35,909 bases of DNA from a virus, in IMG/VR virus record IMGVR_UViG_3300031251_000400, positions 1-35,909 of that record; one strand, given 5' to 3'. Position 1 is the first letter of the stretch; every line of letters begins with the position of its first letter. Below, in pieces: positions 4,780 through 29,548 of this stretch. The notes beneath the pieces were generated by a model. That model was given only the letters and a program-made list of their open reading frames with translations. It was not told the origin of the DNA and did no database searches. The position numbers and the translations under genes are program-made.

Positions 4780-6066
4780 ATGGCTACTAAGAACGAAAAG
4801 CTCAGCAAAGAATTCTTCTCCAACGCTTCCAAAATGACCATCGCACAGTACGAACAGTTTTTGAAGAACGTTGTGCTGAATACTGATCCTCGCAATTTTC
4901 CTCCCATTATCGTGTGGGGCGCTCCTGGTGTTGCGAAGTCTGTAGTTACTGAATCTGTTTTCAACGACAGTGAACGTAAGCTGAAGACTGTCATTCTTTC
5001 GCAGATTGGCCCTCTGGATACTAACGGGCTTCCTCACATTGAAAAAGATGAGGATAAGAAAGATGTCACTCGTATGTCTCCCACTGATATGTTTGGTCGT
5101 GGAAAGCATCATCTTTTCTTGGACGAACTGAACAACTGCGCTCCGTCTACTCTTGCTGCTGTTCAGAATCTTCTTTCGTCCAAGGCTATTGGTGGCGATG
5201 ATTACCACGATGTTCATATTATCGCTGCTTGTAACCCGCCCAGCACTAACAGCTTGGCCAACGATTTGAACTTCCCCACTATTTCGCGTTGTATTAACAT
5301 TGTCATCGATTATTCTCTCGATGACTTCCTGAATTACGCGATGATGTGCGGAACTATTCACCCGGCTATTTCTGCTTTCCACAAGAAGACTTCTGGCCGA
5401 TTCCTCCAGTCCAAGTGGAGCATTTATCCTGGTTCTGCGTATGAAGTTGCTGAACCCATGCCTAACGAACCTTTCCCGTGCCCTCGTTCTTGGACTCTCG
5501 CTTCCTATGCCATTACTGCATTGAGTGGTGCCAAGGTCAACAACATCGTGGATTATGCGATGTTGAAGCCTCTCATTGAAGGTGCTGTTGGTATTCAGGC
5601 GGCTGAACAGTTCGCTACTACCTATGCCTACATGAACCGCATTCCTGATATTGAGAAGATTTTCGCTGGAACTGAAACCGCGAAGAAGGGTAAGCTGGAA
5701 GACAACATTGCTGTACAGTTCTTGACCATGATGAGCTGTATCAATCATTGTATCGCCCAGGTTACTACCGCTTCTTCAAAGAACATCACTTCTCGCATTG
5801 ACGGGCCTGATTCTCCTGCGTACAAGCTCATCGCAGGTATTCATTATTGCGTTCGTTATATGGGAGAAGCTACGGCTCCTGAGTTTGCTACCATGACTCT
5901 TCAGAGTATTTCCCGTGCCATGCGTGAATCCAAGCTTTCTCATGATTTTATGAATAAGCTTCTTTCTGGTGTGGATAAGACCAAGGGACTGACTCGCGAA
6001 GATATCATCAAGTACGCGCGTACCACAGCGGGGAACCAGTCGGATATCCAGGCAAGTATCGGTTAA
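4780..6066 (+). CDS. MoxR/CobS-like AAA+ ATPase
   Basis: This 428-aa protein has a Walker A motif at residues 47-54 (G-A-P-G-V-A-K-S, the MoxR style), Walker B at 112-116 (L-F-L-D-E, D115 and E116) and a sensor-1 Asn in 'IIAACNPPS' (about 152). MoxR ATPases work with VWA-domain partners to remodel proteins or insert metals, and phages carry related CobS/CobT-like pairs. The likely partner is the gene at 8527-9897, which shares the same optimised codon use. The pair is separated here by the first IPxG run. A strong terminator follows directly, so this gene probably ends a well-expressed transcript. The substrate is unknown. Confidence 0.9.
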   Translation: MATKNEKLSKEFFSNASKMTIAQYEQFLKNVVLNTDPRNFPPIIVWGAPGVAKSVVTESVFNDSERKLKTVILSQIGPLDTNGLPHIEKDEDKKDVTRMSPTDMFGRGKHHLFLDELNNCAPSTLAAVQNLLSSKAIGGDDYHDVHIIAACNPPSTNSLANDLNFPTISRCINIVIDYSLDDFLNYAMMCGTIHPAISAFHKKTSGRFLQSKWSIYPGSAYEVAEPMPNEPFPCPRSWTLASYAITALSGAKVNNIVDYAMLKPLIEGAVGIQAAEQFATTYAYMNRIPDIEKIFAGTETAKKGKLEDNIAVQFLTMMSCINHCIAQVTTASSKNITSRIDGPDSPAYKLIAGIHYCVRYMGEATAPEFATMTLQSISRAMRESKLSHDFMNKLLSGVDKTKGLTREDIIKYARTTAGNQSDIQASIG

Positions 6067-6085
6067 TTAGTAAACTACAATAACT

Positions 6086-6123
6086 ATGGTACGGATAGCC
6101 TAAAACTATCCGTACCATTTTTT
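6086..6123 (+). terminator. intrinsic terminator after the AAA+ ATPase gene
   Basis: GGTACGGATAG (6088-6098) pairs perfectly with CTATCCGTACC (6106-6116), extended by two A/T pairs, around the loop CCTAAAA. Six T follow at 6118-6123. This is a textbook intrinsic terminator, and the first run of small paralogs starts only 20 nt later. Confidence 0.93.
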
Positions 6124-6124
6124 A

Positions 6125-6136
6125 ATAGAAAGAAGG
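6125..6136 (+). promoter_or_regulatory. conserved ATAGAAAGAAGG element (copy 1)
   Basis: This 12-nt sequence sits directly after a terminator T-run and 6 nt before ATG 6143. Identical copies occur at 9951-9962 and 18396-18407 in the same position. AGAAGG can act as the Shine-Dalgarno site. The identity over 12 nt suggests that terminator plus leader is a shared module. Confidence 0.7.
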
Positions 6137-6142
6137 CTATTT

Positions 6143-6460
6143 ATGTTTTACACTTTACTTCATATAACTGAAGGCACAATAATTCCTAATTGTGGTTGGA
6201 AGTTATCAAAAACTCAATGGAAAAAATATTTTAAAAATACGAATGTCATAGTATGGAGTTTAGAACTTAATATTTATTGGAATGAATCGTTAAAATTTGC
6301 TAATAAACAAACCAAATATCATAAAGATTATATTATTTTAAATAGAAAAGAGTTATCTATTGTAAAAGTAATAGAAGATGGCGGTTTGACTACTGAACAA
6401 TACAAATTACATCTAAAACATGCCAAAGAAGAATTAGATTTTTTCAAAAGGCTAAAATAA
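6143..6460 (+). CDS. divergent IPxG family protein, 105 aa
   Basis: The N-terminus 'FYTLLHITEGT' matches the family opening with T for P. The C-terminus ('FFKRLK', preceded by a helix) lacks the FEIVEV ending, so membership rests on the N-terminus and on its place at the head of the run. It is lysine- and tryptophan-rich. The start follows the conserved AGAAGG element by 6 nt. Confidence 0.65.
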   Translation: MFYTLLHITEGTIIPNCGWKLSKTQWKKYFKNTNVIVWSLELNIYWNESLKFANKQTKYHKDYIILNRKELSIVKVIEDGGLTTEQYKLHLKHAKEELDFFKRLK

Positions 6461-6610
6461 ATGTATCGAATTTTATATATAACACACGGAAGATACCTTG
6501 GTGATAAGTATGAAGCAAAAGAAAGAGCACAATGGTATATAGATTTTATAGTAGGATGTTCAGAGTACTATCAATCAGATTTTGAAATTGTGGAGATAAT
6601 TAATGTATAA
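6461..6610 (+). CDS. minimal IPxG family protein, 49 aa
   Basis: The ATG immediately follows the previous stop. The protein starts MYRILYITHGRYLG, has a short helix ('EAKERAQWYIDFIV') and ends 'DFEIVEIINV'. At 49 residues it is the shortest intact member and so approximates the minimal fold: paired strands, a helix and a closing strand. Its last 8 nt overlap the next start (ATGTATAA). Confidence 0.8.
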   Translation: MYRILYITHGRYLGDKYEAKERAQWYIDFIVGCSEYYQSDFEIVEIINV

Positions 6611-6812
6611 GATACTTCATATACCAAGTGGACAATATCTGTATAATGGTTATGGCAAAATCATGTTATTTGCTACCGTTATATGGGCAGAAGATGAAAT
6701 AGATAATGTTTCCGATTGTTTAGTAGCATTAGCCTGGAATAAATATAATAGAAATATAGGTTGGCCGGTAAGTAAGGATGAGTTTGAGATACTGGAGGCT
6801 GACGATGTATAA
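6603..6812 (+). CDS. IPxG family protein, 69 aa
   Basis: The protein opens MYKILHIPSGQYLYNG and ends 'FEILEADDV'. The middle holds the helix-like 'SDCLVALAWNKYNRN'. The start is fixed by the 8-nt overlap with the preceding gene. The GGAG of the codons for L-E near its end is the likely ribosome-binding site of the next gene. Confidence 0.85.
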   Translation: MYKILHIPSGQYLYNGYGKIMLFATVIWAEDEIDNVSDCLVALAWNKYNRNIGWPVSKDEFEILEADDV

Positions 6813-7086
6813 AATACTTCATATTTTAACTGGCGAGTTTGTTTGGACTATTTATGGAAGTGGCCTAATATATTTAGGAGAACCAGTATTTAATAAGTAT
6901 TCTGTATGCTGTTATGCCACCAGAAATCAAGCAGAAAAATTAATAAAAAATGCTTGCTCTGATATGTATTTAACGTATATACCTCAAGAAATCACACATC
7001 AAGATATTTATTCTTTTCAACGAAAAAAGTTAATAACAGATTGTGTAGAAAGTGAGTTTGAAATAGTAGAGGTTCCTGATGTATAA
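6805..7086 (+). CDS. IPxG family protein, 93 aa
   Basis: The start is ATG 6805 (MYKILHILTGEFVW), not the upstream in-frame ATG at 6778, because GGAGG lies just before 6805 and the 8-nt overlap is kept. 'TRNQAEKLIKNAC' is a clear amphipathic helix, and the end is 'FEIVEVPDV'. The closing codons GTAGAGGTT supply the site for the next gene. Confidence 0.86.
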   Translation: MYKILHILTGEFVWTIYGSGLIYLGEPVFNKYSVCCYATRNQAEKLIKNACSDMYLTYIPQEITHQDIYSFQRKKLITDCVESEFEIVEVPDV

Positions 7087-7357
7087 AATACTTCATATAC
7101 CAAGTGGAAGTTATCTTAATATGATTTATTTTTGTAATAGACCAGAAAGTAATATGTTTTCAATTGGAAATACAACAAACCCTTCAGAAGAATGGTCTTG
7201 TAAGGAGTTAACTTACGAAAATAAATATGATGCTTTTGATTTTACAGTGAGATTACTAACTAAAAATAGTTACTTTGAATTATACAGTAATTTTACAGGG
7301 AATAAAATAGTCAGAGAGAAGTTTTACGATGTAGAATATGAAATAGTTGAGGTATAA
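7079..7357 (+). CDS. IPxG family protein, 92 aa
   Basis: It opens MYKILHIPSGSYLN and ends 'YEIVEV', with Tyr for the usual Phe. The helix segment is 'NKYDAFDFTVRLL'. It shares the ATGTATAA overlap with its upstream neighbour. Downstream the spacing changes: the stop TAA is separated from the next ATG by one base. Confidence 0.86.
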   Translation: MYKILHIPSGSYLNMIYFCNRPESNMFSIGNTTNPSEEWSCKELTYENKYDAFDFTVRLLTKNSYFELYSNFTGNKIVREKFYDVEYEIVEV

Positions 7358-7358
7358 T

Positions 7359-7580
7359 ATGAGATATTATATTCTTCATATTCCTTCTGGCAGTTATGTA
7401 TACAATGATGTTAGAAAAGAAGATTGGTGGTTTGCTCATAAAAAAATAGCAGATCAACTTGTAAGAGAAGATTGTCCAGTTAATATATACGGATATATTA
7501 AATGGTTTAGAAAAAGTAATCCACAAATAGATTGGGATAATTTACAACTTTATGAACTTGAAGTAGTAGAAAAGGAATAA
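7359..7580 (+). CDS. IPxG family protein, 73 aa
   Basis: The start is ATG 7359 (MRYYILHIPSGSYVY), with GAGG in the end of the previous gene as the ribosome-binding site; an in-frame ATG at 7347 lacks this spacing. The helix is 'AHKKIADQLVRED' and the ending is 'YELEVVEKE', a variant of the family C-terminus. Confidence 0.83.
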   Translation: MRYYILHIPSGSYVYNDVRKEDWWFAHKKIADQLVREDCPVNIYGYIKWFRKSNPQIDWDNLQLYELEVVEKE

Positions 7581-7581
7581 T

Positions 7582-7884
7582 ATGAGCGAACCAAGGCTTG
7601 TTACTGTAAAAACTTATGATGGTGATTCAGAATTTAACCAATCATTAGATGATTTTATTAAAAAAATTCAAGAAAATATCCCAGAACAGTTTAAGAAAGA
7701 AGCTAAAATTACTATTGACGGTAGTGAAAGTGTTTATGTACGTGTAGAGTACAAAAGATATGAAACTTGTGAAGAAATAACAGCAAGAGAATTACAAGAA
7801 AAACAATATGCTGAACATACTAAAAAATATGAAATGAAACAACTAAAAGGGTTAATAGAGAAATACGGTATTCCAAAAGAATAG
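7582..7884 (+). CDS. hypothetical acidic/charged protein, 100 aa
   Basis: It shows neither the family opening nor the family ending. Residues 20-45 and 70-98 look helical and highly charged, ending 'LKGLIEKYGIPKE'. It lies one base after the previous stop with AAGGA upstream. It may be a passenger gene carried in the run. No known domain is recognised. Confidence 0.65.
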   Translation: MSEPRLVTVKTYDGDSEFNQSLDDFIKKIQENIPEQFKKEAKITIDGSESVYVRVEYKRYETCEEITARELQEKQYAEHTKKYEMKQLKGLIEKYGIPKE

Positions 7885-7892
7885 GAATAATA

Positions 7893-8255
7893 ATGACTAC
7901 GTTTGAATGTAACCATTGTAAAAATACGTGGAGTAAAGGTGTCACAAGAGACATGAAATATGTTACTTCATGTAAAAAATGTAAACATAAACAAGTATAT
8001 AATTTATTAGAAATAACTTCTTGTAGATATTTACAGGTAAGTGATTCAAATAGTGTATATTCGTATAACTTTAAAACAAGAACAAAAGCCTATTTAACTC
8101 TAATCTATGCTATTAATAGATATAACGATGATTTACAAGAAGATAACTTTTTTGCTTGTAATGAGGGGCAGGAATTTTCACAAGGACAACCATTAACATA
8201 CAGTCAATTTGAAATTGTAAAGACACATATATTAACTGAAAAAGAGCTTGGGTAA
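7893..8255 (+). CDS. zinc ribbon fused to an IPxG family domain, 120 aa
   Basis: Residues 5-32 hold C-x2-C ('CNHC') and C-x2-C ('CKKC') about 19 residues apart, a zinc-ribbon pattern. The rest matches the family: 'YNLLEITSCRYLQV', the helix 'KTRTKAYLTLIYAINRYN' and the ending 'FEIVKT'. The second part is closest to the next gene (shared FKTxTKAY and SQGQPLT). The fusion suggests delivery of the small domain to nucleic acid or to a protein partner, which is inference. Confidence 0.78.
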   Translation: MTTFECNHCKNTWSKGVTRDMKYVTSCKKCKHKQVYNLLEITSCRYLQVSDSNSVYSYNFKTRTKAYLTLIYAINRYNDDLQEDNFFACNEGQEFSQGQPLTYSQFEIVKTHILTEKELG

Positions 8256-8506
8256 TGAATAATAAAAAAGTTTGGAATGCTTTACATATCCCAACGTGTA
8301 ACTACTGTTATTTATTAGTTAACGGCGATTATTTAGATCAATGTGATTTTAAAACCAAGACAAAGGCATATTGGAAATTAATTAATGTCATTAATGCCTA
8401 TAATGAACAGTTGGGCTGTAATCAAGAAGAAGATTTCTTTTCGCAAGGGCAACCATTAACATTTAAAGAGTTTGACATTGTAAAAACAAATCCAATTAGT
8501 CTTTAA
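8255..8506 (+). CDS. IPxG family protein, 83 aa
   Basis: It opens 'WNALHIPTCNYCYL', with C for the family Gly, has the helix 'KTKTKAYWKLINVINAYN' and ends 'FDIVKTNPISL'. It is the stand-alone sister of the zinc-ribbon fusion just upstream, whose stop it overlaps by one base (TAATG). It is the last member of run 1. Confidence 0.83.
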   Translation: MNNKKVWNALHIPTCNYCYLLVNGDYLDQCDFKTKTKAYWKLINVINAYNEQLGCNQEEDFFSQGQPLTFKEFDIVKTNPISL

Positions 8507-8526
8507 CAACCAACACAGGAGCAAAC

Positions 8527-9897
8527 ATGAGTGCGAAAGTAACCGAAGATATCAAAGCGTTTTATGAAGATTTGCTGACCAATCAGTGGGACAAGATTGA
8601 CCCACCAGCAATGAACCTCCCCGCATTGCGTCAGTTTATTATCAAAACAATTCCGTTCTACGCCAGCGCTTTGTCGCTTGTGGATATCGAAATCTGTAAT
8701 GATGATAAGACGAAGGAATGGCCCTCGTTCGGATTCACTAACGGCTACAAGATTTATATTTCACCAAAATTGTACGAAATTCATCGTATGGTCACAGAGA
8801 AGTCAGGCAAGCCATGGTTTTCTACTCCTGAACTTGGTATCACTTTCACCATTCTTCATGAAATTGGCCATCTGGTGTTTGACAGTTTTGGTCGTATTCA
8901 GCATCGTGATCCAAAACTATGGAATATCGCAACGGACGCACAGATCAATCAGTTCTGCGCCAGGATCATGAAAGAAAGTGGTGTATTCCGTACTGATGCT
9001 GCGTATACCAAGTTCATGGAAGTTCTCCAAAAGAACTTTATTTTTGATCCTGGTAAGTATTCTAAACTTTCCGCAGAAGGTACCTACGATGATATGTATA
9101 AGGTAGGTATGCGTGGGAGTGACCATAACGGCTGGTCTTTGAACGGAGACATGGTTGGTGATGGTTCAGGTAAAGAAGCTGATGGGAAGCCTCTGACAGC
9201 CGAAGAACAGATGGCAAGAGATATTATTAAATCTGAACTTAAGGATTATTCCACGAAGAATGGCAGTAAACTTCCTGGTCAGGGAAGCAGTTATGGTCGT
9301 GATTTTGAGATGCTGCTTGAACCTCCTAAAGTAAACCTTCGTCAGGTTTTAAAGCACATTACCGACAGAGAAAACACCGAAGATTTTGGGTATTCTCGTC
9401 GTGGTTCTCGTATGGATCACATGATGCCGCAGAATATTCGTCTTCCTTCTGTGATTGACGCTGCTCCCAACTTGATTAGAAAGTTCATGGTAGTTCTTGA
9501 TTGTTCTGGTTCTATGAGTTCAGACCAGTTGAACGATTACCTGAACATCATCCGAGAAGTTGTGGCAAAACATACCAAAAATCCTGTGTGGCTCATTCTT
9601 CATACGGATCAGGTGTGTTTCTCCGATGATATTAGTTCTTATCAGGACGTGCCAAAGAACATCACTGGTGGAACCGCATTTCAGCCAGTTCTCAATGAAA
9701 TCGCAAGGCTTAAAAAGGAAAAGAATATCGTTCCTTCTGTGGTTATGTGGGGAACTGACTTGTACGGTGAGTTGAGTGACGGTGACTATTGCGTCAAAAA
9801 CTTCCCATTCTACAAGAAGCTTCACTGGATTATTTCTGGTAGCAATCTGGAAGCACCCATCGGAACCTGCTGGTTTATAGACGAAATCGGTGTGTAA
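8527..9897 (+). CDS. VWA-domain protein with HExxH metallopeptidase-like region
   Basis: CAGGAG precedes the start. The 456-aa protein has H111-E-I-G-H115 in 'TILHEIGHLVFD', typical of zinc metallopeptidase-like domains found upstream of VWA domains. Its VWA MIDAS is D325-x-S327-x-S329 ('LDCSGSM'), with the supporting Thr near 383 and Asp 411 ('GTDLYGE'). Such proteins pair with MoxR/CobS ATPases, here 4780-6066, and may bind substrate through the metal site. The codon use matches the ATPase gene. Proteolytic activity is not proven by the motif. A terminator follows directly. Confidence 0.88.
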   Translation: MSAKVTEDIKAFYEDLLTNQWDKIDPPAMNLPALRQFIIKTIPFYASALSLVDIEICNDDKTKEWPSFGFTNGYKIYISPKLYEIHRMVTEKSGKPWFSTPELGITFTILHEIGHLVFDSFGRIQHRDPKLWNIATDAQINQFCARIMKESGVFRTDAAYTKFMEVLQKNFIFDPGKYSKLSAEGTYDDMYKVGMRGSDHNGWSLNGDMVGDGSGKEADGKPLTAEEQMARDIIKSELKDYSTKNGSKLPGQGSSYGRDFEMLLEPPKVNLRQVLKHITDRENTEDFGYSRRGSRMDHMMPQNIRLPSVIDAAPNLIRKFMVVLDCSGSMSSDQLNDYLNIIREVVAKHTKNPVWLILHTDQVCFSDDISSYQDVPKNITGGTAFQPVLNEIARLKKEKNIVPSVVMWGTDLYGELSDGDYCVKNFPFYKKLHWIISGSNLEAPIGTCWFIDEIGV

Positions 9898-9915: not shown

Positions 9916-9950
9916 ATGAAGGAGGTTAGAAATAGCCTCCTTCATTTTTT
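9916..9950 (+). terminator. intrinsic terminator after the VWA gene
   Basis: ATGAAGGAGG (9916-9925) pairs with CCTCCTTCAT (9936-9945) around a 10-nt loop and is followed by a run of T to 9950. Confidence 0.92.
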
Positions 9951-9962
9951 ATAGAAAGAAGG
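9951..9962 (+). promoter_or_regulatory. conserved ATAGAAAGAAGG element (copy 2)
   Basis: Identical to the elements at 6125 and 18396, again directly after the terminator T-run. ATG 9971 lies 8 nt further on. Confidence 0.7.
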
Positions 9963-9970
9963 CAATCGTA

Positions 9971-10195
9971 ATGACTAATTTCAAATATAAATTACTGTAT
10001 ATTCCAAATGGCACCTTCTTTAAAAGTGCTATATCAGGGAAAGATTATCTATTTTCTAATAAAACATCTAAACAAAAGATAGTAAACTTTCTCAATAATA
10101 TACAATATGATACTGGCAATGGTATTTTGAGTATAAATGGGTTTCCTCTTGGACATAAGTTTAGTATCGAAGAGTTTGAGGTAATAGATGACTAA
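9971..10195 (+). CDS. IPxG family protein, 74 aa
   Basis: Opens 'KYKLLYIPNGTFFK' after three extra residues, has the helix 'TSKQKIVNFLNNI' and ends 'HKFSIEEFEVIDD'. It heads run 2 behind the AGAAGG element. Its stop overlaps the next start in ATGACTAA. Confidence 0.85.
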   Translation: MTNFKYKLLYIPNGTFFKSAISGKDYLFSNKTSKQKIVNFLNNIQYDTGNGILSINGFPLGHKFSIEEFEVIDD

Positions 10196-10430
10196 ACTTC
10201 TTTATATTCCATCAGGAACTTACATTATGTTTAATAGTATTATGCGTACTGACAGAACTGAAATTGTAGAAGACTCTTATTGGCATAATAATCACCGTGA
10301 TAATGCCGCTTACATTATTTATAAACTTGTTCATTCAAATGCGGATAGATACGCTTCATTAAGAAAAGCAAGCGATATTCCTCTTAATGTTAAATTACAG
10401 GTAGAAGAGTTCGAGATTATAGATGTATAA
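10188..10430 (+). CDS. IPxG family protein, 80 aa
   Basis: Opens MTKLLYIPSGTYIMF and ends 'EEFEIIDV'. The middle has 'RTEIVEDSYW', similar to the 'RTEIYEETYAY' of the member at 11523, and a long helix 'NAAYIIYKLVHSN'. The downstream overlap switches to ATGTATAA, the junction type more usual in runs 1 and 4. Confidence 0.85.
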   Translation: MTKLLYIPSGTYIMFNSIMRTDRTEIVEDSYWHNNHRDNAAYIIYKLVHSNADRYASLRKASDIPLNVKLQVEEFEIIDV

Positions 10431-10593
10431 ACTTCTATGGATACCAGGAGGTTTTTACGTTTATTGGGCTAGTAATAGAGAAGTCATGATATTTCATTCT
10501 TATGAAGCTGCTAAAAAAGAATTGGAGCTTTATGTACAAAAAGATAAACAACTTGAATATGAAATTATTGAAATAGAGGATAAAAGTGTATAA
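10423..10593 (+). CDS. short IPxG family protein, 56 aa
   Basis: Opens MYKLLWIPGGFYVYW, then the helix 'SYEAAKKELELYVQ', and ends 'YEIIEIEDKSV'. It is compact, like the 49-aa member in run 1. The stop overlaps a GTG start of the next gene (GTGTATAA). Confidence 0.8.
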   Translation: MYKLLWIPGGFYVYWASNREVMIFHSYEAAKKELELYVQKDKQLEYEIIEIEDKSV

Positions 10594-10789
10594 AACACTG
10601 TATATACCTGATGGAATCTTTATGTGGTATACTTGTCCTACATTACAAGAAGCAGAAGATAATATAGACTGTATAATTAAAGAGAATTGCCACTTTAACT
10701 GGATAAAAAATAATAAAAACCCAATCAGAAGTGAATTTGAGGTTATATATGTGGATACAACCAATCAAAATGATACCGGAGAAGAATAA
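10586..10789 (+). CDS. IPxG family protein with GTG start and C-terminal extension, 67 aa
   Basis: GTG 10586 keeps the 8-nt overlap geometry (GTGTATAA) and gives MYKTLYIPDGIFMWY. After the family ending 'FEVIYV' the frame runs on for 11 residues ('DTTNQNDTGEE') because the expected stop is lost; the extension lies over the next gene. Confidence 0.8.
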   Translation: MYKTLYIPDGIFMWYTCPTLQEAEDNIDCIIKENCHFNWIKNNKNPIRSEFEVIYVDTTNQNDTGEE

Positions 10790-11036
10790 ACCACAAGTTA
10801 AAGTTTTGTATATACCTAATGGTGAATATATAACTATGTATTGGTGGTTTGATTTTGCTGTCGGTCATTTTTATGTAGAAAGGTATAGAGAAAAGAAACT
10901 TACCAAACTTGTAAATACGTTAAATAACTTTTTACGATATGAAGGTACAGTAAAGTATATTAGTCGTGTAAATCTTCCAATAGATCATAATTTTAGTATT
11001 GAAGAGTTCGAATTGGTATATATTCCAGGAGACTGA
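10749..11036 (+). CDS. IPxG family protein with N-terminal extension, 95 aa
   Basis: ATG 10749 sits at the normal distance from GAGGT, but the family opening ('KVLYIPNGEYI') comes only at residue 19. The N-terminal 18 residues look like junction insertion debris. An in-frame ATG at 10770 is the alternative start. The ending is 'HNFSIEEFELVYIPGD'. The stop TGA is one base before the next ATG. Confidence 0.75.
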   Translation: MWIQPIKMIPEKNKPQVKVLYIPNGEYITMYWWFDFAVGHFYVERYREKKLTKLVNTLNNFLRYEGTVKYISRVNLPIDHNFSIEEFELVYIPGD

Positions 11037-11037
11037 T

Positions 11038-11298
11038 ATGACTAAAATCTTATATATTCCAGAAGGAACTTATATTACTTTTATGCTCGGTGGTAATAGA
11101 TACAGTAGATTAACAACTATTATTGAAGAAGCCGGTAATGGGTACGCTGGATTAAGACAAGTAATAAACAATCCAAATAGTAATGATATAGAGTATATTA
11201 ATGTATTACTTAATACTGATCCATGCTGTGAGTTTAGAAGTAGGAACAAATTACCAGCTAAACTTTATTATGAAATGTTTGAGGTAATATATGACTAA
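11038..11298 (+). CDS. IPxG family protein, 86 aa
   Basis: The ATG is preceded by AGGAG. It opens MTKILYIPEGTYITF and ends 'YEMFEVIYD'. The middle contains 'RLTTIIEEAGNGY' and a long Asn-rich insert. The start restores the standard arrangement after the derailed junction upstream. Confidence 0.85.
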   Translation: MTKILYIPEGTYITFMLGGNRYSRLTTIIEEAGNGYAGLRQVINNPNSNDIEYINVLLNTDPCCEFRSRNKLPAKLYYEMFEVIYD

Positions 11299-11530
11299 AA
11301 TACTGTATATACCTAATGGAGAATATATAAGATTTTTTAACGGTAGTTTTACAACTACTTTTTCTAAATTAGAAAATTTGCTTGAAAATGAATTAGCAAA
11401 TCATGAATTTGAAACAATTTTAAAATATCTAAATGACCAAGAAGATGTTTGTGAAGAATGGTATGAAGAAAATAACATTGAACATCTTCATATATTTTTA
11501 GCATCAGAGATTGAGGTTATATATGACTAA
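11291..11530 (+). CDS. IPxG family protein, 79 aa
   Basis: Opens MTKILYIPNGEYIRFF and ends 'ASEIEVIYD', with Ile for the usual Phe. It is strongly acidic, and the helices 'SKLENLLENELANHEFETILKYL' fill most of the middle. Standard ATGACTAA overlaps flank both sides. Confidence 0.85.
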   Translation: MTKILYIPNGEYIRFFNGSFTTTFSKLENLLENELANHEFETILKYLNDQEDVCEEWYEENNIEHLHIFLASEIEVIYD

Positions 11531-11759
11531 AATACTGTATATACCTCTTGGAGTATACTTGGAGTTACCTACCAAGGATCAGTGTTCACGTACAGAAATA
11601 TATGAAGAAACCTATGCGTATGCTAATAAGTTACCTACACCAGAAGACTGTATAGAATATATGTGTAGAGATTATAATATGTCGTGGTTAATTTATAGAT
11701 ATAATTTACCGGAAGGTTTTACACCAATAAAAGAAGAGTTTGAGATTATATATGACTAA
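11523..11759 (+). CDS. IPxG family protein, 78 aa
   Basis: The start at ATG 11523 is set by the overlap. It opens MTKILYIPLGVYLEL, with 'RTEIYEETYAYANKL' and 'LIYRYNLPEGF' in the middle, and ends 'EEFEIIYD'. The middle is related to the members at 10188 and 11752. Confidence 0.86.
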   Translation: MTKILYIPLGVYLELPTKDQCSRTEIYEETYAYANKLPTPEDCIEYMCRDYNMSWLIYRYNLPEGFTPIKEEFEIIYD

Positions 11760-11997
11760 AATACTACATATACCCTCTGGAACATACTGCTCTTTTATAT
11801 CATCCACAGAATACGATCACAAACACGGCAAACCATGTTATGGACAAGTAACAGTTTTTGAAGATTCACATGCCTATTCTTTTCACAAGTTAACACCAAA
11901 ACAGGCAATACAAATTACGCTTGATGGTACCAGAAATTGGGTATATGGGTGTGATGGCGCTCAATTAGAAAATGAATTTGAGATTATATATGACTAA
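11752..11997 (+). CDS. IPxG family protein, 81 aa
   Basis: Opens MTKILHIPSGTYCSF and ends 'NEFEIIYD'. The middle 'VTVFEDSHAYSFHKLTPKQAIQ' resembles that of the member at 11523 in order and spacing, which suggests these adjacent genes are duplicates that have since diverged. Confidence 0.86.
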   Translation: MTKILHIPSGTYCSFISSTEYDHKHGKPCYGQVTVFEDSHAYSFHKLTPKQAIQITLDGTRNWVYGCDGAQLENEFEIIYD

Positions 11998-12187
11998 ACT
12001 TCTTTATATACCAAATGGAGTGTATGTAACGGCAAATATTAATGGCACTAATGGGGAAGCTGAAAGACTATTACAGGTTTTAATAAAAGTAAGTCCAGAA
12101 GATATTAATGAACTTTGGCTACGAAAATTCAATCTGCCGGAAAATCATAAATTTAGTGAAGAAGAATTTGAAATTGTAGAAGATTAA
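11990..12187 (+). CDS. IPxG family protein, last of run 2, 65 aa
   Basis: Opens MTKLLYIPNGVYVTA and ends 'HKFSEEEFEIVED'. As the last member it keeps the protein ending, but it is spelled GAAATTGTAGAAGAT, without the GAGG that serves as ribosome-binding site in members followed by another copy. Confidence 0.85.
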   Translation: MTKLLYIPNGVYVTANINGTNGEAERLLQVLIKVSPEDINELWLRKFNLPENHKFSEEEFEIVED

Positions 12188-13582: not shown

Positions 13583-13619
13583 ACTACTGGGAATGTTAAA
13601 AAAGGACATTCCCAGTAGT
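13583..13619 (+). repeat. perfect 14-bp inverted repeat without T-run
   Basis: ACTACTGGGAATGT (13583-13596) and ACATTCCCAGTAGT (13606-13619) pair perfectly around TAAAAAAGG. No T-run follows, so it is not a classical terminator. It lies between the 272-aa gene and run 3 and may be an RNA-processing or stability hairpin, or an operator. The CCTAC-CTACTG sequence resembles the hairpin at 12201. Confidence 0.75.
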
Positions 13620-13643
13620 AGTGTATTCGATTGGAGAAATACT

Positions 13644-13871
13644 ATGACTAAATTACTGTATATACCAAATGGTTCTTTTATAACTTTTTCATCTGACCGG
13701 GTTGGTGGTTACACAGAAGAAGCTGAAAAGTCTGATTTAATTGATGCTTGTAACAATTCTATTGAGCAGTTAATAGACAGAATAATCAATGGTTCTACTA
13801 ATCAGTTGTTTAAGAGAAATAATTTACCAGATATAGTAGTAATAGATGAGTTTGAGGTAATATATGACTAA
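13644..13871 (+). CDS. IPxG family protein, 75 aa
   Basis: The start is ATG 13644 with TTGGAGA upstream; an ATG at 13593 lies in the hairpin and is rejected. Opens MTKLLYIPNGSFITF, middle 'GYTEEAEKSDLIDACNNSIEQLI', then 'KRNNLPDIV' and the ending 'DEFEVIYD'. Confidence 0.85.
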   Translation: MTKLLYIPNGSFITFSSDRVGGYTEEAEKSDLIDACNNSIEQLIDRIINGSTNQLFKRNNLPDIVVIDEFEVIYD

Positions 13872-14088
13872 ATTACTGTATATACCAAACGGACAGTTTT
13901 TATATTTTGACAATTATAATAATCATTATAATACAGATATTTCAAAATATGAGCCACAATATACCACAGAACTTTTGATACATTGGGTAATTTGTAATTG
14001 TAGTGACAGAACTGACTGGTTGGAAAGAAACGGTATAGAAGATGGTCATAGATTTTTAGAAAGTGAATTTGAGGTAATATATGACTAA
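13864..14088 (+). CDS. IPxG family protein, 74 aa
   Basis: Opens MTKLLYIPNGQFLYF and ends 'RFLESEFEVIYD'. The middle is rich in Asn and Tyr, followed by 'DWLERNGIEDGH', the counterpart of the LxRxNLPxxH motif of its relatives. ATGACTAA overlaps lie at both ends. Confidence 0.86.
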   Translation: MTKLLYIPNGQFLYFDNYNNHYNTDISKYEPQYTTELLIHWVICNCSDRTDWLERNGIEDGHRFLESEFEVIYD

Positions 14089-14344
14089 AATACTTTATAT
14101 ACCTAATGGTGAATTCATTACTTTTGAAGATAAAAATAACCATATTAGGTATACTGCTAATATAGAAAATATAAGCCTCATAGCTTATGACTATTTAGAT
14201 AGATTAAATACTTTAAGTCCAATTACTGTTAACGATATTCTATACTATATAACAGATAGAAGAGAACTTAAAAGTCAATTTAGCAAAAGAAATAAGTTCG
14301 CTACGATAGTATCGTTATCTGAATTAGAGGTAATATATGACTAA
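14081..14344 (+). CDS. IPxG family protein, 87 aa
   Basis: Opens MTKILYIPNGEFITF and ends 'SELEVIYD', with Leu for the usual Phe. Helical 'ISLIAYDYLDRLNTL' and 'KSQFSKRNKF' occupy the middle. Confidence 0.85.
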   Translation: MTKILYIPNGEFITFEDKNNHIRYTANIENISLIAYDYLDRLNTLSPITVNDILYYITDRRELKSQFSKRNKFATIVSLSELEVIYD

Positions 14345-14573
14345 AATACTTTATATACCAAATGGAGAATACTTAAAGTTTTTTTCTGACTGTTATATTA
14401 CTGATATATCTAAAGTAAACTGGTATAAAGGTAGATCTCCCGAAGAAATATTAAAAGATATTATAAATGACTTAAATGGAAGTGGTAATAAGTACAATGA
14501 GTGGAGAATTCTCAATAATATAGGTAATAGTATAGTAACTAAAAGTGAATTTGAGATTATATATGATAATTAG
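14337..14573 (+). CDS. IPxG family protein, 78 aa
   Basis: Opens MTKILYIPNGEYLKFF and ends 'SEFEIIYDN'. The usual stop in ATGACTAA is changed to ATGATAATTAG, adding one Asn and making the overlap with the next gene 11 nt. The middle helix is 'SPEEILKDIINDLNG'. Confidence 0.85.
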   Translation: MTKILYIPNGEYLKFFSDCYITDISKVNWYKGRSPEEILKDIINDLNGSGNKYNEWRILNNIGNSIVTKSEFEIIYDN

Positions 14574-14805
14574 ACTATTACATATACCAACTGGACAATT
14601 TATACAGTTACGAGAAAACATGGGTAGTAGCAATTGGACTACTAATATGTCCGCTGTAATGTTAAGTAGACTGGACCTAAATGACATTGATAAAATTATT
14701 GACTATATGTTAAAAGGTAATTTTAGAGACGATTATTTAAAAAGACATGAATTACCACCAAATTATGAATTCCATAGAGAAGAGTTTGAGGTTATATATG
14801 ACTAA
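14563..14805 (+). CDS. IPxG family protein, 80 aa
   Basis: The start is ATG 14563 (MIIRLLHIPTGQFIQL). The middle contains 'LNDIDKIIDYMLKGNFRDDYLKRHELPPNY', ending 'REEFEVIYD'. The N-terminus differs from its neighbours because of the altered 11-nt junction. Confidence 0.84.
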   Translation: MIIRLLHIPTGQFIQLRENMGSSNWTTNMSAVMLSRLDLNDIDKIIDYMLKGNFRDDYLKRHELPPNYEFHREEFEVIYD

Positions 14806-15043
14806 AATACTATATATTCCAAGCGGAGAATACATAGTTTTTCTTGGGTTTGGGCGAAGTCACCGTTCTGATACTACCACGTATGAAGAATCTGAATATA
14901 GCAAGAAATGCGGTAATAGGTATATGCCAATTGATTTCATTTTAAACCAATGTATAAACAATACGTTTGGACTTAACATACAAGAAGAATTTGATAGAAA
15001 AGTAATCTACCAGAAAGAATGTTTTGAGATTATATATGACTGA
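14798..15043 (+). CDS. IPxG family protein, last of run 3, 81 aa
   Basis: Opens MTKILYIPSGEYIVFLG, middle 'TTTYEESEYSKK', ending 'ECFEIIYD'. The stop is TGA in ATGACTGA, which overlaps the start of an unrelated gene. The family junction has thus been reused to couple translation to a core gene. Confidence 0.85.
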   Translation: MTKILYIPSGEYIVFLGFGRSHRSDTTTYEESEYSKKCGNRYMPIDFILNQCINNTFGLNIQEEFDRKVIYQKECFEIIYD

Positions 15044-15900: not shown

Positions 15901-15922
15901 ACGTTATCAGGAGGTCATTAAA

Positions 15923-18395: not shown

Positions 18396-18407
18396 ATAGA
18401 AAGAAGG
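18396..18407 (+). promoter_or_regulatory. conserved ATAGAAAGAAGG element (copy 3)
   Basis: Third identical 12-nt copy directly after a terminator T-run; ATG 18413 lies 5 nt further on. Confidence 0.7.
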
Positions 18408-18412
18408 GAAGT

Positions 18413-18634
18413 ATGAGATACCAGTTACTTCATATACCAACAGGAACCTATGTTTCAAGTATATATGTGAATGGCAAAGATGTATGGACTGTTTGGGGAG
18501 AAAGTATCGTAAAAGAAACTCCAAAAATATTCGGTTCTTTAAAAGAAATAAAAGCATATTTTAGAAATGAAAAAATAAAACATCAACGTAAACTAAATAG
18601 ATGTGAATTTGAACCAGTGAGGATTTCTACATGA
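18413..18634 (+). CDS. IPxG family protein, 73 aa
   Basis: Opens MRYQLLHIPTGTYVSS and ends 'CEFEPVRIST', a variant of the FEIVEV ending. The helix is 'SLKEIKAYFRNEKIK'. It heads run 4a. GAGGA near its end serves the next start, with which it overlaps by ATGA. Confidence 0.84.
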   Translation: MRYQLLHIPTGTYVSSIYVNGKDVWTVWGESIVKETPKIFGSLKEIKAYFRNEKIKHQRKLNRCEFEPVRIST

Positions 18635-18975
18635 GTAAATATAAAATACTTCATTTATTATCAGGTGAATATTTTATTACAGACGAACTTAAAGATAACG
18701 TTACATTAGATAAGTTTAAAAAAGAGTTTGAAATTGTAATGGAAAATTACTTAACCACTCCTATATTTAATGAGGATGGTAACTGTTTAGATTCAGAAAA
18801 AGAAGCTATATGTCATAAACTTGTCGGTGAAACATTATATAATGATCCTGAATATGTGGATGAGTGGTATTATTCGTTTATTGATTTCTTAATACAAAAC
18901 GTGACGGAAGATGATGATAAAAGATACGAAACGTTACTAATTGCTGAATTTGAAATTATAGAGGTTGAAGTATGA
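18631..18975 (+). CDS. IPxG family protein, 114 aa
   Basis: Opens MSKYKILHLLSGEYF and ends 'EFEIIEVEV'. It has a long acidic insert, with 'FKKEFEIVMENYL' near residue 30 looking like a second copy of the ending motif inside the protein. It overlaps both neighbours by 4 nt. Confidence 0.84.
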   Translation: MSKYKILHLLSGEYFITDELKDNVTLDKFKKEFEIVMENYLTTPIFNEDGNCLDSEKEAICHKLVGETLYNDPEYVDEWYYSFIDFLIQNVTEDDDKRYETLLIAEFEIIEVEV

Positions 18976-19226
18976 TTAAATATAAAATACTTCATATACC
19001 AACTGGACTATATTTACACACCGTTGTAGAACTTGATGGTAGTTATTATAGATATTTATCAGATTATCCGGCTAACTACCCTAAACAAACATTAGATAAA
19101 ATTTTTCCAAAAGGTTATACATTTGCTGTCAGAGAGAATAGAGTTAACCGCGATATATTTGGTAATAGTGATATACTAACAGCTATGAATTATGTTGAGT
19201 TTGAAATCATAGAGGTTAAAGTATGA
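18972..19226 (+). CDS. IPxG family protein, 84 aa
   Basis: Opens 'KYKILHIPTGLYLHT' and ends 'VEFEIIEVKV'. The middle is tyrosine-rich with little clear helix. GAGGTT in its last codons is placed correctly for ATG 19223. Confidence 0.86.
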   Translation: MIKYKILHIPTGLYLHTVVELDGSYYRYLSDYPANYPKQTLDKIFPKGYTFAVRENRVNRDIFGNSDILTAMNYVEFEIIEVKV

Positions 19227-19525
19227 ACGATAAACACTATAAACTACTTCATATACCAACAGGAACTTACGTAAGATACCGAGCGATGTATAGGATTTTA
19301 CATATACCTACTGGATTATATGTTTCTGGTATTCAAAATATTGATAATAAATCTTGTTTATATTATTTAAACAACGAGGACACTTCTAAATGGTCTAAAT
19401 ATCAGATAGAAGATAGTTTTATAAATTGCTATAAGGTTAAATACATAGATATTACAGTTAATATGAGAGAAATAACAGAAGCGTGGAAATCTGAATTTGA
19501 ACTAATAGAGATTACAAATGAATAA
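19223..19525 (+). CDS. IPxG family protein with doubled N-terminal motif, 100 aa
   Basis: The first 35 residues contain the family opening twice: 'YKLLHIPTGTYV' and, after 'RYRA', 'MYRILHIPTGLYV'. The second copy begins at an in-frame ATG (19286). This looks like a fusion of a truncated copy to a complete one by unequal recombination. The ending is 'SEFELIEITNE'. The next gene overlaps by ATGAATAA. Confidence 0.86.
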   Translation: MNDKHYKLLHIPTGTYVRYRAMYRILHIPTGLYVSGIQNIDNKSCLYYLNNEDTSKWSKYQIEDSFINCYKVKYIDITVNMREITEAWKSEFELIEITNE

Positions 19526-19772
19526 ATATGCCATTCTTCATATACCTACTGGAAAATATGTGTATAGAAGTTGCGTAATATCCATGGATAGCTGGGATTT
19601 AACACCAGCATATTTTTTAACAGATAGAATAGCAACATTTAATGGGTATATTTGGAGTATATTTAGATATTTAAGCGTTAGAAAAGAAAATAAAGTATAT
19701 ATAGATACCGGATTTAAAGATATTAAGATTGAAACATCTAAAAATGAATTTTTACTAATAAAGGTTAAATAA
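19518..19772 (+). CDS. IPxG family protein, 84 aa
   Basis: Opens 'KYAILHIPTGKYVYR' and ends 'NEFLLIKVK', a weakened form of the family ending. The middle is aromatic-rich. The start is fixed by the 8-nt ATGAATAA overlap and the stop by a 1-nt overlap with the next gene. Confidence 0.84.
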   Translation: MNKYAILHIPTGKYVYRSCVISMDSWDLTPAYFLTDRIATFNGYIWSIFRYLSVRKENKVYIDTGFKDIKIETSKNEFLLIKVK

Positions 19773-20086
19773 TGTCAAAATATAAAATTATACTACATGA
19801 TGAAACATTACGTGGACATAAACAAACACACAAAAAGAGTGGTATGTATTATTATTGGCATGGCTGGAAAAACTATGGAGAAGAAGAAGCCGAGTTTCAT
19901 TCTACTTATTCAGCTAAATGTTTCTTATTAAGTCATTCTTCATTTCCAAAATTTGCCACTTATTTAGTTTCTCAACCAACTGAAAGTATATTAGATAAAA
20001 TGATAGCAAAAGGAAATTATACTTTTAAAGGATTTGAGAGTAATTTACTTTGTGAATTTGTGATAGTGGAGGTTCCTGATGTATAG
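19772..20086 (+). CDS. divergent IPxG family protein, 104 aa
   Basis: The opening 'SKYKIILHDETLRGHK' keeps only the first strand of the motif, and IPxG itself is lost. The ending 'CEFVIVEVPDV' and the ATGTATAG junction are typical. The middle has a Tyr/Trp/His-rich stretch and 'STYSAKCFLLSHSSF'. Membership rests on position and C-terminus. Confidence 0.68.
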   Translation: MSKYKIILHDETLRGHKQTHKKSGMYYYWHGWKNYGEEEAEFHSTYSAKCFLLSHSSFPKFATYLVSQPTESILDKMIAKGNYTFKGFESNLLCEFVIVEVPDV

Positions 20087-20291
20087 ATTATTGTATATAC
20101 CAACAGGAGAATATGTTTGGTTTTATAGGTATGCTTATCGTAATTTTGATTGTTCTACTGTATACGTCAATAAACCTGGATATAAAATAGAGAGTAATAA
20201 AGAAGAAATAGAAGAATTATTGAATTTTATACCACGTAATTTTTGTAATGAAACTTATGAATTTGAAATAGTGGAGTATAGTCATGTATAA
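20079..20291 (+). CDS. IPxG family protein, 70 aa
   Basis: Opens MYRLLYIPTGEYVWFYR, has the short helix 'NKEEIEELLNFI' and ends 'YEFEIVEYSHV'. It overlaps both neighbours by 8 nt. Confidence 0.86.
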   Translation: MYRLLYIPTGEYVWFYRYAYRNFDCSTVYVNKPGYKIESNKEEIEELLNFIPRNFCNETYEFEIVEYSHV

Positions 20292-20562
20292 AAAGTATTC
20301 ATTATTATATATACCAGAGAGTGTGTATGTTTATTTTGTTATTGAAAACAATAAAATAAGCGGATTTTATGGATGGTATGACCCACGCGTTAAAAACTTA
20401 AGGCTTACTGGAACTAAAAGAGAAATGAACATATTATTAGAGTATATACTAAACTATTATGAAAAAAATCCAGAATGTGACGCAGAATTGATTATATCTA
20501 ATGAAACTTTTGAAATTGTCGAAAGGGGAGTAAATGACTGTATTGAGAATAGTTTGTGTTAG
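20284..20562 (+). CDS. IPxG family protein with C-terminal extension, 92 aa
   Basis: Opens 'KYSLLYIPESVYVYF', with Glu-Ser for the usual Ser-Gly, has the helix 'TKREMNILLEYILNYY' and reaches the family ending 'FEIVE'. It then continues for 12 residues ('RGVNDCIENSLC') over the start of the phosphoesterase gene. AGGGGAG in this tail serves that gene. Confidence 0.82.
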   Translation: MYKKYSLLYIPESVYVYFVIENNKISGFYGWYDPRVKNLRLTGTKREMNILLEYILNYYEKNPECDAELIISNETFEIVERGVNDCIENSLC

Positions 20563-21223
20563 TGATACCCATTGTCAATTAGATAAAATTAAAATGCCTG
20601 ATGGAGATATTTTACTCCATTCTGGTGATTTTACTATGAATGGTAATTTACACGAAGTTTCAAAAGAAATTGGTATCTTTGGTAAGTTTCCTCATACTTA
20701 TAAAATTTGTTGTGTTGGAAATCATGATTTCTTTTTTGAAAGGTATCCAAAAGAAGCTAAACAATTATGTGTAGATAACGGAGTAATTTATTTAGAAAGT
20801 GAGTCTATTATTATAGAAGGTATTAAGTTCTACGGTTCTTCTTATTCCAAGTGGTTTTATGATTGGGCATTTAACCTCAAAAAAGATGGCTCTAATACAA
20901 AGGAACATTGGGCTAAAATACCACTTGATACTAATGTTTTAATTACACATGGCCCAGCTTACGGTATATTAGACAGAGTATTACGCGGTGAAAATGTTGG
21001 ATGTCCTGAAATTAGACAAAAGATTGAGTTTGATTTACCTGAATTATTGTTATTTCAATTTGGACATATACATCTAAATGGTGGAAAAACAGAGGTAGTA
21101 AATAATGTGTGGTGTGCTAATGCCTCTATTTGCGATGAACGGTATGCTACTACAAATAAACCAATTTTGTTTGATTTAAATACTGAAACTAAAAGTATTA
21201 TTCAGGTGTTTGAAGATGACTAA
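20534..21223 (+). CDS. calcineurin-like metallophosphoesterase, 229 aa
   Basis: All metal-binding motifs are present in order: D11-x-H13 ('SDTH'), G31-D32, G62-N-H-D65, H139 ('ITHGP') and G177-H-I-H180. The layout resembles compact MPPED-like phosphoesterases that hydrolyse phosphodiester or nucleotide bonds with two metal ions. AGGGGAG precedes the ATG. It overlaps an IPxG gene at each end, by 29 nt upstream and 8 nt downstream (ATGACTAA), so it is translated within the run. The substrate is unknown; RNA ends, nucleotides or signalling nucleotides are possible. Confidence 0.92.
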   Translation: MTVLRIVCVSDTHCQLDKIKMPDGDILLHSGDFTMNGNLHEVSKEIGIFGKFPHTYKICCVGNHDFFFERYPKEAKQLCVDNGVIYLESESIIIEGIKFYGSSYSKWFYDWAFNLKKDGSNTKEHWAKIPLDTNVLITHGPAYGILDRVLRGENVGCPEIRQKIEFDLPELLLFQFGHIHLNGGKTEVVNNVWCANASICDERYATTNKPILFDLNTETKSIIQVFEDD

Positions 21224-21479
21224 CAAAAAGTATACTATACGATGTGCTGAAACTGGTGACTATATTTATACTTGTCAAGGAGATAAGCGTTACTCACCGT
21301 TCACGCCAGAAGAACTATGCGGTAATATGATTGGTAGATTACCTATTAAGTTTACTAATGTAAATGAAGCTACTAATTTTTTATTTCATACTACTTGGCC
21401 AGTCATAATAAATGGAGTAGGATATAGTATTTCTGAATATCATTATTTATTTGAAATAGTTGAGATTGAAGATGACTAA
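21216..21479 (+). CDS. divergent IPxG family protein, 87 aa
   Basis: The start is ATG 21216, in the ATGACTAA overlap with the phosphoesterase gene (not ATG 21210). The opening 'KKYTIRCAETGDYIYT' has AET for IPS, then 'FTPEELCGN', the helix 'NEATNFLFHT' and the ending 'YLFEIVEIEDD'. It links run 2-type junctions to the LFEIVEV subtype. Confidence 0.8.
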   Translation: MTNKKYTIRCAETGDYIYTCQGDKRYSPFTPEELCGNMIGRLPIKFTNVNEATNFLFHTTWPVIINGVGYSISEYHYLFEIVEIEDD

Positions 21480-21801
21480 ACCAAAAAAGAAAAAGTATGT
21501 TATTCTCCATATAGAGACAGGAACTTATATATATAGTAGTACCTGTCAAATAGTATATGATTATTTTTATCCAAATATAGCCGGTTATCATTGGTTATTA
21601 ACAGTAAGTCTTCGAGTATTGGCAGATGTTGGTATAGATAGACGCGATTTTACACTAAAAAAAGATGCTATATATTTTAAAGATAAAGTATCAGCTATTA
21701 CTTTTTTACGTGATGTTTATATACCTACACTAAATGAAAGCTGGTTTGGTAATTCAGAAAGAAAATTTAATAGAAACGAATTTGAAATTATTGAGGTATA
21801 A
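21472..21801 (+). CDS. IPxG family protein, 109 aa
   Basis: The start is ATG 21472. After a basic 'KPKKKK' leader it reads 'YVILHIETGTYIYS'. The middle is long and aromatic with 'DKVSAITFLRDVYI' as helix, and the ending is 'NEFEIIEV'. The lysine leader is not seen in other members. Confidence 0.84.
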   Translation: MTKPKKKKYVILHIETGTYIYSSTCQIVYDYFYPNIAGYHWLLTVSLRVLADVGIDRRDFTLKKDAIYFKDKVSAITFLRDVYIPTLNESWFGNSERKFNRNEFEIIEV

Positions 21802-21804
21802 TAT

Positions 21805-22053
21805 ATGTATAGGATACTTCTTATAGAGACTGGCGAATGGTTATATACAACAGAAGTGTGTCCAATGTTGTTGTATTCTTTCGAAGAAATACCACGACAT
21901 CCATTACAAAGTTTTTGTATTGCCGGGTTTGATGTTATTGAAGATATAGTTAGACTTTTTCAACAAGGAAATACACAAGAGGTATGGATACAAGGAACAA
22001 ATACTAAACTATCCATGGATACTTTACATTTATTTGAAATTATTGAGGTATAG
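21805..22053 (+). CDS. IPxG family protein, 82 aa
   Basis: Opens MYRILLIETGEWLYT, then 'YSFEEIPRH', a helix 'VIEDIVRLFQQG' and the ending 'HLFEIIEV'. GAGGTA of the preceding gene lies at good distance before the ATG. Confidence 0.86.
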   Translation: MYRILLIETGEWLYTTEVCPMLLYSFEEIPRHPLQSFCIAGFDVIEDIVRLFQQGNTQEVWIQGTNTKLSMDTLHLFEIIEV

Positions 22054-22056
22054 TAT

Positions 22057-22308
22057 ATGTATAGAATACTTCACATAGAAAGCGGAGAGTATTTATACTA
22101 TATGGAGCCTAACTTTAATTATCAATTATTTTCTTTTGAAGAAATAATAAAATATGAGGAAACCGTGTTTAAAATAGCTGAATTTTCATCAAAAGAAAAA
22201 ATACTTAACATATTTTATAATTCAGACTGTCATGCCGTGTATATCTGCGGAGAAAATACAGCGCTAACCTCTGATATTTTACCATTATTTGAAATAGTTG
22301 AGGTATAG
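22057..22308 (+). CDS. IPxG family protein, 83 aa
   Basis: Opens MYRILHIESGEYLYYM, with 'FSFEEIIKYE' and the helix 'SKEKILNIFYNS', ending 'PLFEIVEV'. It aligns well with the previous gene over its whole length ('VWIQGTNTKL' against 'VYICGENTAL'), so this pair is a tandem duplicate. Confidence 0.87.
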   Translation: MYRILHIESGEYLYYMEPNFNYQLFSFEEIIKYEETVFKIAEFSSKEKILNIFYNSDCHAVYICGENTALTSDILPLFEIVEV

Positions 22309-22311
22309 AGT

Positions 22312-22548
22312 ATGTTTAGAATACTTCACATACCAAGCGGAGAGTATTTATATAAAGATTGTCATGGCAATTTATTTTTATTTTCAGAAGAATTTGAACG
22401 CTATTTTCCGTGTTCAGTAGTTGAATACCATAATATAGGGAAAGCTTCAAATATTTTTAATGGAAATAGAGTAATTAACAGAGGACGTACAGAACAAATA
22501 CGATTAGGAAAAGAAAATAATAAATTGTTCTGTATTGTGGAGGTTTAA
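22312..22548 (+). CDS. IPxG family protein, 78 aa
   Basis: Opens MFRILHIPSGEYLYKD, with 'LFSEEFERYF' and the ending 'KLFCIVEV', where Cys replaces the usual Glu. GTGGAGGTTTAA provides the site for the directly following ATG. Confidence 0.86.
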   Translation: MFRILHIPSGEYLYKDCHGNLFLFSEEFERYFPCSVVEYHNIGKASNIFNGNRVINRGRTEQIRLGKENNKLFCIVEV

Positions 22549-22794: not shown

Positions 22795-22795
22795 A

Positions 22796-29227: not shown

Positions 29228-29231
29228 CATA

Positions 29232-29546: not shown

Positions 29547-29548
29547 CT

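Follow-up and report, generated by a model that had tools for sequence, protein, structure and literature searches.

A phage MoxR/VWA gene pair separated by one of six arrays of a multiplied small-protein family

Why do two genes that usually stand side by side lie far apart in one phage? The question is raised by the 35.9-kb virus record IMGVR_UViG_3300031251_000400 (a fragment, analysed over its whole length and called the window here; all positions are in its numbering unless another locus is named). In this window a gene for a MoxR-type AAA+ ATPase is followed on the same strand by the gene for a metallopeptidase-like VWA protein, but with 2460 nucleotides (nt) between them. A first-pass annotation of the DNA had described eight copies of a small-protein family and one other gene in this interval. 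A profile search finds exactly these, and the coordinates are collected in the table below. Nor is the event specific to the pair, since the window has six arrays of this family, the run among them. Our explanation, to which we give a probability of roughly 75%, is that this known pair has been split because a family of proteins of about 80 amino acids (aa) multiplied in the lineage, filling this slot and five others.

On sequence criteria, the two proteins are the known phage MoxR/metallopeptidase-vWA pair of the N4 gp24/gp25 type. The ATPase matches Pfam AAA_5 (E=2e-7) and, over residues 16-385 and thus most of its length, phrog_1297 ('ATPase', E=5e-48). Its partner matches PF13203 (DUF2201_N putative metallopeptidase, E=2e-7) at the N-terminus, PF09967 (VWA-like, E=3e-6) at the C-terminus and phrog_1314 (E=5e-42). 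Members of both families are labelled N4 gp24-like and gp25-like in a phage record. The VWA/metallopeptidase family also carries the label 'HNH endonuclease' in PHROGs (phrog_1314) and in many phage records, despite its DUF2201_N and VWA domains.

The motifs of both proteins are intact. In the ATPase, K53, D115, E116, N152, R170, P235 and R236 are invariant across ten aligned phage homologues (10/10); we take these to represent Walker A, Walker B, the sensor asparagine, the arginine finger and the sensor-2 PR. The HExxH and metal-ion-dependent adhesion site (MIDAS) residues of the VWA protein are likewise invariant in 10/10 phage homologues, and a second alignment, of 37 VWA proteins, has the HExxH, the DxSGS, the GGT threonine and the TD aspartate invariant throughout. 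An HExxH motif had been thought unusual in a phage VWA protein; it proves to be general among these homologues, and the architecture is described in the passages of PMC7824862 that deal with it. A regular-expression count across 82 VWA genes finds HExxH in 80 (the other two genes are fragments, of 115 and 70 aa) and D.S.S in 74 (the misses are truncated genes). At least four of the first D.S.S matches (DYSWS, DYSFS twice and DFSFS) may represent another site, so the MIDAS claim rests on the alignments. The predicted VWA half (residues 316-456) resembles integrin I domains (Z about 11). The AlphaFold model of the whole protein is only moderate (mean pLDDT 64), and we claim no fold for the metallopeptidase half from it.

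Elsewhere the pair is normally adjacent, as the first-pass annotation had assumed, with occasional insertions of other genes. We scanned viral contigs with a pattern derived from the ten-sequence MoxR alignment and kept 80 distant loci. The VWA gene lies downstream on the same strand in 71 of them, at a distance of -32 to 181 nt in 70 and of 911 nt in one; in the other nine the contig is cut off no more than 145 nt from MoxR. Among eight isolated phages examined, five have a gap of at most 150 nt, the exceptions being LIT1 (528 nt, one gene between), CRP-7 (1656 nt, seven genes) and PA5oct (2886 nt, four genes).

What fills the gap here is not confined to it. Using a profile built from sequences of the window and its close relative, with a threshold of E<1e-3, we count 54 family copies in six slots among core genes (8, 10, 6, 7, 7 and 16 copies), all on the + strand. 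One open reading frame (ORF) in run 4 (19772-20086) is marginal (E 1.2e-4 in one of two profile searches only) and is not counted. Neighbouring copies mostly overlap by a few bases. They encode 49-138 aa (median 83), with a negative net charge in 43 of the 54, and the consensus has a conserved start (ILxIPxGxY), a variable middle and a conserved end (EFEII). Identity to the nearest paralog is typically about 40%.

The history of the arrays can be followed in two other phages. The closest relative, 3300029986_000716 (MoxR 79% and VWA 74% identical), is collinear with the window over the single-copy genes (48-79% identity) and has arrays in the same six slots; its MoxR-VWA slot holds its own divergent run of 14 copies. 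The best match in the relative falls in the same slot for 24 of the 54 window copies (mean 9.2 and maximum 21 in 5000 permutations), or for 35 of the 54 if slots 2 and 3, which are similar, are merged (mean 11.4, maximum 24). A scan of viral contigs for the HEIGH motif gave an outgroup, 3300045970_000109 (52.2 kb; MoxR 51% and VWA 53% identical). In it, 975 nt with three small unrelated genes separate MoxR from VWA, and behind VWA come the homologues of the window genes at 12247, 12739 and 15391 and then HU. It has no run, and the homologues of 12247 and 12739 follow directly behind VWA without array remnants. Two family copies (E 1.3e-5 and 8e-4) and at most three weaker ones are dispersed over the outgroup, none of them between MoxR and VWA. 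No family copy occurs in 88 fetched loci of more distant phages (L005-L092). The absence of the run both from the collinear outgroup and from these 88 loci is best explained by its insertion into an older block, and this much of the earlier proposal of an insertion into an old operon stands. We infer that the direction was insertion with tandem duplication and not loss in the outgroup, and the simplest account is expansion from a low-copy family with insertion into the slots. Searching viral contigs by motif for more relatives of the family or of the VWA gene yielded only the species already given; among the 27 matches of a HEIGH-motif scan of genome contigs, none belonged to a relative of the VWA gene and just two matched the MoxR profile, both marginally.

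Codon usage also favours an old gene block. The synonymous-codon correlation between MoxR and VWA is 0.81, against 0.17 and 0.39 with the paralog family; GC content at third codon positions is 0.49 and 0.44 in the pair and 0.20 in the paralogs, whose codon usage resembles that of the rest of the AT-rich genome. The shared codon style noted earlier is therefore real but marks a block and not the pair alone, as three more genes (855-1466, 3829-4464 and 12739-13557) show it, with correlations of 0.56-0.76. Homologues of the codon-style genes are present in the outgroup in the same order. Higher expression of this block is a possible reason for the style.

A further feature, already recognised in the first-pass annotation, is that each gene of the pair is followed by a terminator-like hairpin and then by the same leader. 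Both hairpins have 13-bp stems, with z -4.8 each and 0/200 shuffles folding as well. Exact copies of the 13-mer ATAGAAAGAAGGC lie at 6125 and 9951, and a copy with one mismatch lies at 18396, ahead of run 4, where, judged by eye, the order of hairpin and leader is the same. A corresponding hairpin follows MoxR in the relative, with changes on one side of its stem matched by changes on the other. Of 63 non-redundant loci, 20 have a terminator-like hairpin in the 200 nt that follow MoxR, and in most of these 20 the two genes are adjacent. In the same loci the controls are 2/62 upstream of MoxR, 7/51 after VWA and 0.031 per equal length elsewhere; because gene bodies contribute to this last background, comparison with the two flank counts is fairer. 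The hairpin thus recurs with the pair and is not the mark of a split operon, and we dropped the notion that insertion of the run had produced the terminator after MoxR.

How, then, might the distant VWA gene be expressed? The U-run of the MoxR hairpin and the start codon that opens run 1 are only about 20 nt apart, and a promoter downstream of the hairpin is therefore unlikely; read-through of the hairpin is the simplest inference from this layout. The VWA gene begins 20 nt after run 1, and the hairpin scan found none between. MoxR would thus be transcribed up to its own terminator, and VWA would come last on the run-1 transcript, giving less VWA than MoxR. If VWA is expressed in this way, the physical split need not break the function of the pair. 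From what is known of the two families, a MoxR hexamer would use ATP to remodel clients presented by the VWA partner through its metal site, the HExxH domain might also clip them, and the most likely stage would be virion assembly; for the assembly role with proteolytic processing we adopt the proposal of PMC7824862.

Several points weigh against insertion of a multiplying family. Only one outgroup contig is this near; it is a fragment, and loss of the runs there is possible. The pair is not directly adjacent there, and small genes may thus have stood in the ancestral slot already. We picked the 80 distant loci by one sequence pattern and best score, which does not make them a random sample. 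Within its own species the slot is seen in the window alone, the identical contig 3300028666_000375 matching only from window position 17469. Finally, the relative has no terminator directly after VWA; two inserted genes come first. These (L003 7488-9461 in the relative) are adjacent, zinc-finger-rich, endonuclease-like by eye and absent from the window.

Of the other explanations, the one closest to ours is that the MoxR-VWA slot is a hot spot for the gain of small genes, with the family as one of many occupants. The contents of the slot in LIT1, CRP-7 and PA5oct, given above, and the three genes of the outgroup speak for it. However, five further slots of the genome carry the family, so that family expansion is needed in addition to the slot. 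We regard this explanation as possible, though not the one to prefer, and it is partly compatible with an expansion of the family. An improbable history is that the arrays are ancestral, the outgroup and the distant phages having lost them and the pair having become adjacent secondarily. The few dispersed copies of the outgroup do imply that the family predates the split. Nevertheless, it is missing from all distant phages examined, the genes behind the outgroup VWA show no trace of it, and several independent losses would be needed.

The split could instead be functional, the run-1 proteins being clients, adaptors or regulators of the MoxR-VWA machine placed for co-expression with VWA. A run is indeed kept in this slot in both species (6 of the 8 window run-1 copies match the run 1 of the relative best), and the short, hairpin-free junction between run and VWA would suit co-expression. 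As the family also occupies five slots beside unrelated genes (helicase, DnaB, metallophosphoesterase and ligase), we find such a role very unlikely. An assembly artefact is scarcely credible. Tandem similar copies are prone to misassembly and two copies in the relative are identical; against this, copies are typically as divergent as described above, the window and 3300028666_000375 show 0 differences over 18.4 kb, and three more contigs from the relative match its first one at 99.76-99.96%. Expansion of the family with insertion into existing slots thus remains our preferred explanation.

The family itself has no recognisable kin in the resources searched. Comparison with Pfam (38 and then 79 members), PHROGs (38), NCBIfam (79), PADLOC (4) and a PDB sequence profile gave no convincing match, and no library family was matched by more than two members. 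In tblastn searches of 50,697 phage records with three single copies, one gave a weak partial match (E 0.2) and the other two none. The predicted structure of one copy (6805-7086; mean pLDDT 82, pTM 0.72) found nothing at E<=0.001 when searched with Foldseek against viral and PDB libraries; the top viral entries have E about 0.06, one being a named but uncharacterised phage protein. A GIY-YIG origin, suggested by a weak 1mk0 row and a similar strand order, was rejected at an hhalign probability of 0.5-0.8%; the structural match of the model to I-TevI is weak (Z 2.2, root-mean-square deviation 3.0, 55 aligned). No description of such a paralog family stood among the papers listed by a literature search.

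Some details bear on how the copies change. In the relative, the CxxC/CxxC N-terminal part of copy 7893-8255 corresponds to a gene of its own (L003 4962-5204), which suggests a fusion. Two adjoining copies in the relative (L003 10370-10594 and 10587-10811) encode identical proteins and, on this sequence identity, are a recent tandem duplication. Across the four near-identical contigs of the relative, the listed family genes differ at 16 single bases, and every one of these changes is non-synonymous, where site counts predict about three synonymous; one creates a stop and some neighbouring changes fall in one codon. In the listed core genes, of similar total length, 2 of 3 changes are non-synonymous, and two more changes lie outside both gene lists, near a borderline copy. 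This excess is suggestive, no more, of relaxed or diversifying selection. It is conceivable, though on the doubtful side, that the family is a fast-evolving arsenal (for example, for host interaction or counter-defence) that grew from few copies to more than 50 and settled in arrays among the core genes of one phage lineage, with conserved genes including the chaperone pair serving as expression platforms.

Table 1. Positions of the pair, its motifs and flanking signals, and the family arrays in the window
Feature	Position	Strand	Basis
MoxR-type AAA+ ATPase, N4 gp24 type, 428 aa	4780..6066	+	ORF call, Pfam, PHROGs, alignment
Walker A codons GAPGVAKS, residues 47-54	4918..4941	+	alignment; G50 and K53 invariant 10/10
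Walker B codons LFLDE, residues 112-116	5113..5127	+	alignment; D115 and E116 invariant 10/10
Terminator-like hairpin and U-run after MoxR	6086..6118	+	fold scan against shuffles
Leader ATAGAAAGAAGGC, Shine-Dalgarno-like, before run 1	6125..6137	+	exact match
Run 1 paralog copy 1	6143..6460	+	profile search
Run 1 paralog copy 2, 49 aa	6461..6610	+	profile search
Run 1 paralog copy 3	6603..6812	+	profile search
Run 1 paralog copy 4, structure predicted, mean pLDDT 82	6805..7086	+	profile search
Run 1 paralog copy 5	7079..7357	+	profile search
Run 1 paralog copy 6	7359..7580	+	profile search
Unrelated run 1 gene, 100 aa	7582..7884	+	ORF call, Pfam/PHROGs
Run 1 paralog copy 7, CxxC/CxxC N-terminus	7893..8255	+	profile search
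Run 1 paralog copy 8	8255..8506	+	profile search
Metallopeptidase-like (DUF2201_N) and VWA protein, N4 gp25 type, 456 aa	8527..9897	+	ORF call, Pfam, PHROGs, alignments
HEIGH codons (HExxH), residues 111-115	8857..8871	+	H111, E112 and H115 invariant 10/10; also 37/37
MIDAS codons DCSGS, residues 325-329	9499..9513	+	D325, S327, S329, T383 and D411 invariant
Terminator-like hairpin and U-run after VWA	9916..9945	+	fold scan against shuffles
Leader ATAGAAAGAAGGC, second copy, before run 2	9951..9963	+	exact match
Run 2, 10 paralog copies	9971..12187	+	profile search
Run 3, 6 paralog copies	13593..15043	+	profile search
Run 4, 7 paralog copies at E<1e-3	18413..20562	+	profile search
Run 5, 7 paralog copies	21210..23056	+	profile search
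Run 6, 16 paralog copies and an unrelated gene	27560..32154	+	profile search

Other genes of these phages deserve mention. The product of window 33476-33775 (99 aa) is 67% identical to that of outgroup L137 3800-4111, which lies between MoxR and VWA, and is more conserved than MoxR. The family A DNA polymerase (33765-35909) seems split: an ORF matches the exonuclease and, of the polymerase domain, only profile positions 21-93 of 381, and a new ORF then begins; the relative looks alike (L120 2660-5120). Treble-clef (DUF4379) genes, mobile-endonuclease-like, lie at different places in the two phage species (window 23102-23797; L120 1769-2659; L121 8856-9929 and 13219-14112), L003 15208-15898 being listed with these sites as the equivalent region. 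An HU-like DNA-binding protein gene is followed by a ClpP-like protease gene at 15884-16887.

The pair itself is already known; the arrays are the new part. If our explanation is correct, the separation of the pair is a case of slot-by-slot colonisation of a phage core block by an expanding family without known relatives, and a low-copy outgroup together with a collinear relative makes this history datable and testable. The recurrent hairpin would be a regulatory feature of the widespread gp24/gp25 pair, predicting more MoxR than VWA.

According to the passages on group 2.2 jumbo phages in Iyer et al. 2021 (PMC7824862), these carry a MoxR/metallopeptidase-vWA pair, for which a virion-assembly chaperone with proteolytic processing is proposed there. 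The sections of PMC4193335 on gp24 and gp25 give them as N4-like core genes, found in middle transcripts in N4 and near structural genes in other N4-like phages. As far as these texts and the corresponding part of PMC7650795 describe them, the pairs are like ours in families (phrog_1297 and phrog_1314), order, strand and intact HExxH and MIDAS; unlike them, ours has an eight-copy run and one gene between, in an unclassified AT-rich phage. Cellular RavA-ViaA, CoxD-CoxE and the ternary conflict systems, in the account of the relevant sections of PMC7159879, similarly combine an AAA+ MoxR with a VWA partner bearing a metal site, but the window VWA partner has an N-terminal DUF2201_N domain. Among the neighbours scanned in this fragment, Pfam recognised no third component of a ternary conflict system (VMAP, iSTAND, FtsH or beta-propeller), and PADLOC gave no match for six proteins. 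For the arrays, the nearest parallel is the lineage-specific expansion in Bacillus phage G, with about 35 copies of a zinc ribbon in the part of PMC7824862 that treats it. In both cases one small protein family is greatly expanded in one phage lineage; here, however, the family is another one and its 54 copies are packed into a 35.9-kb fragment, in arrays at slots common with a relative.

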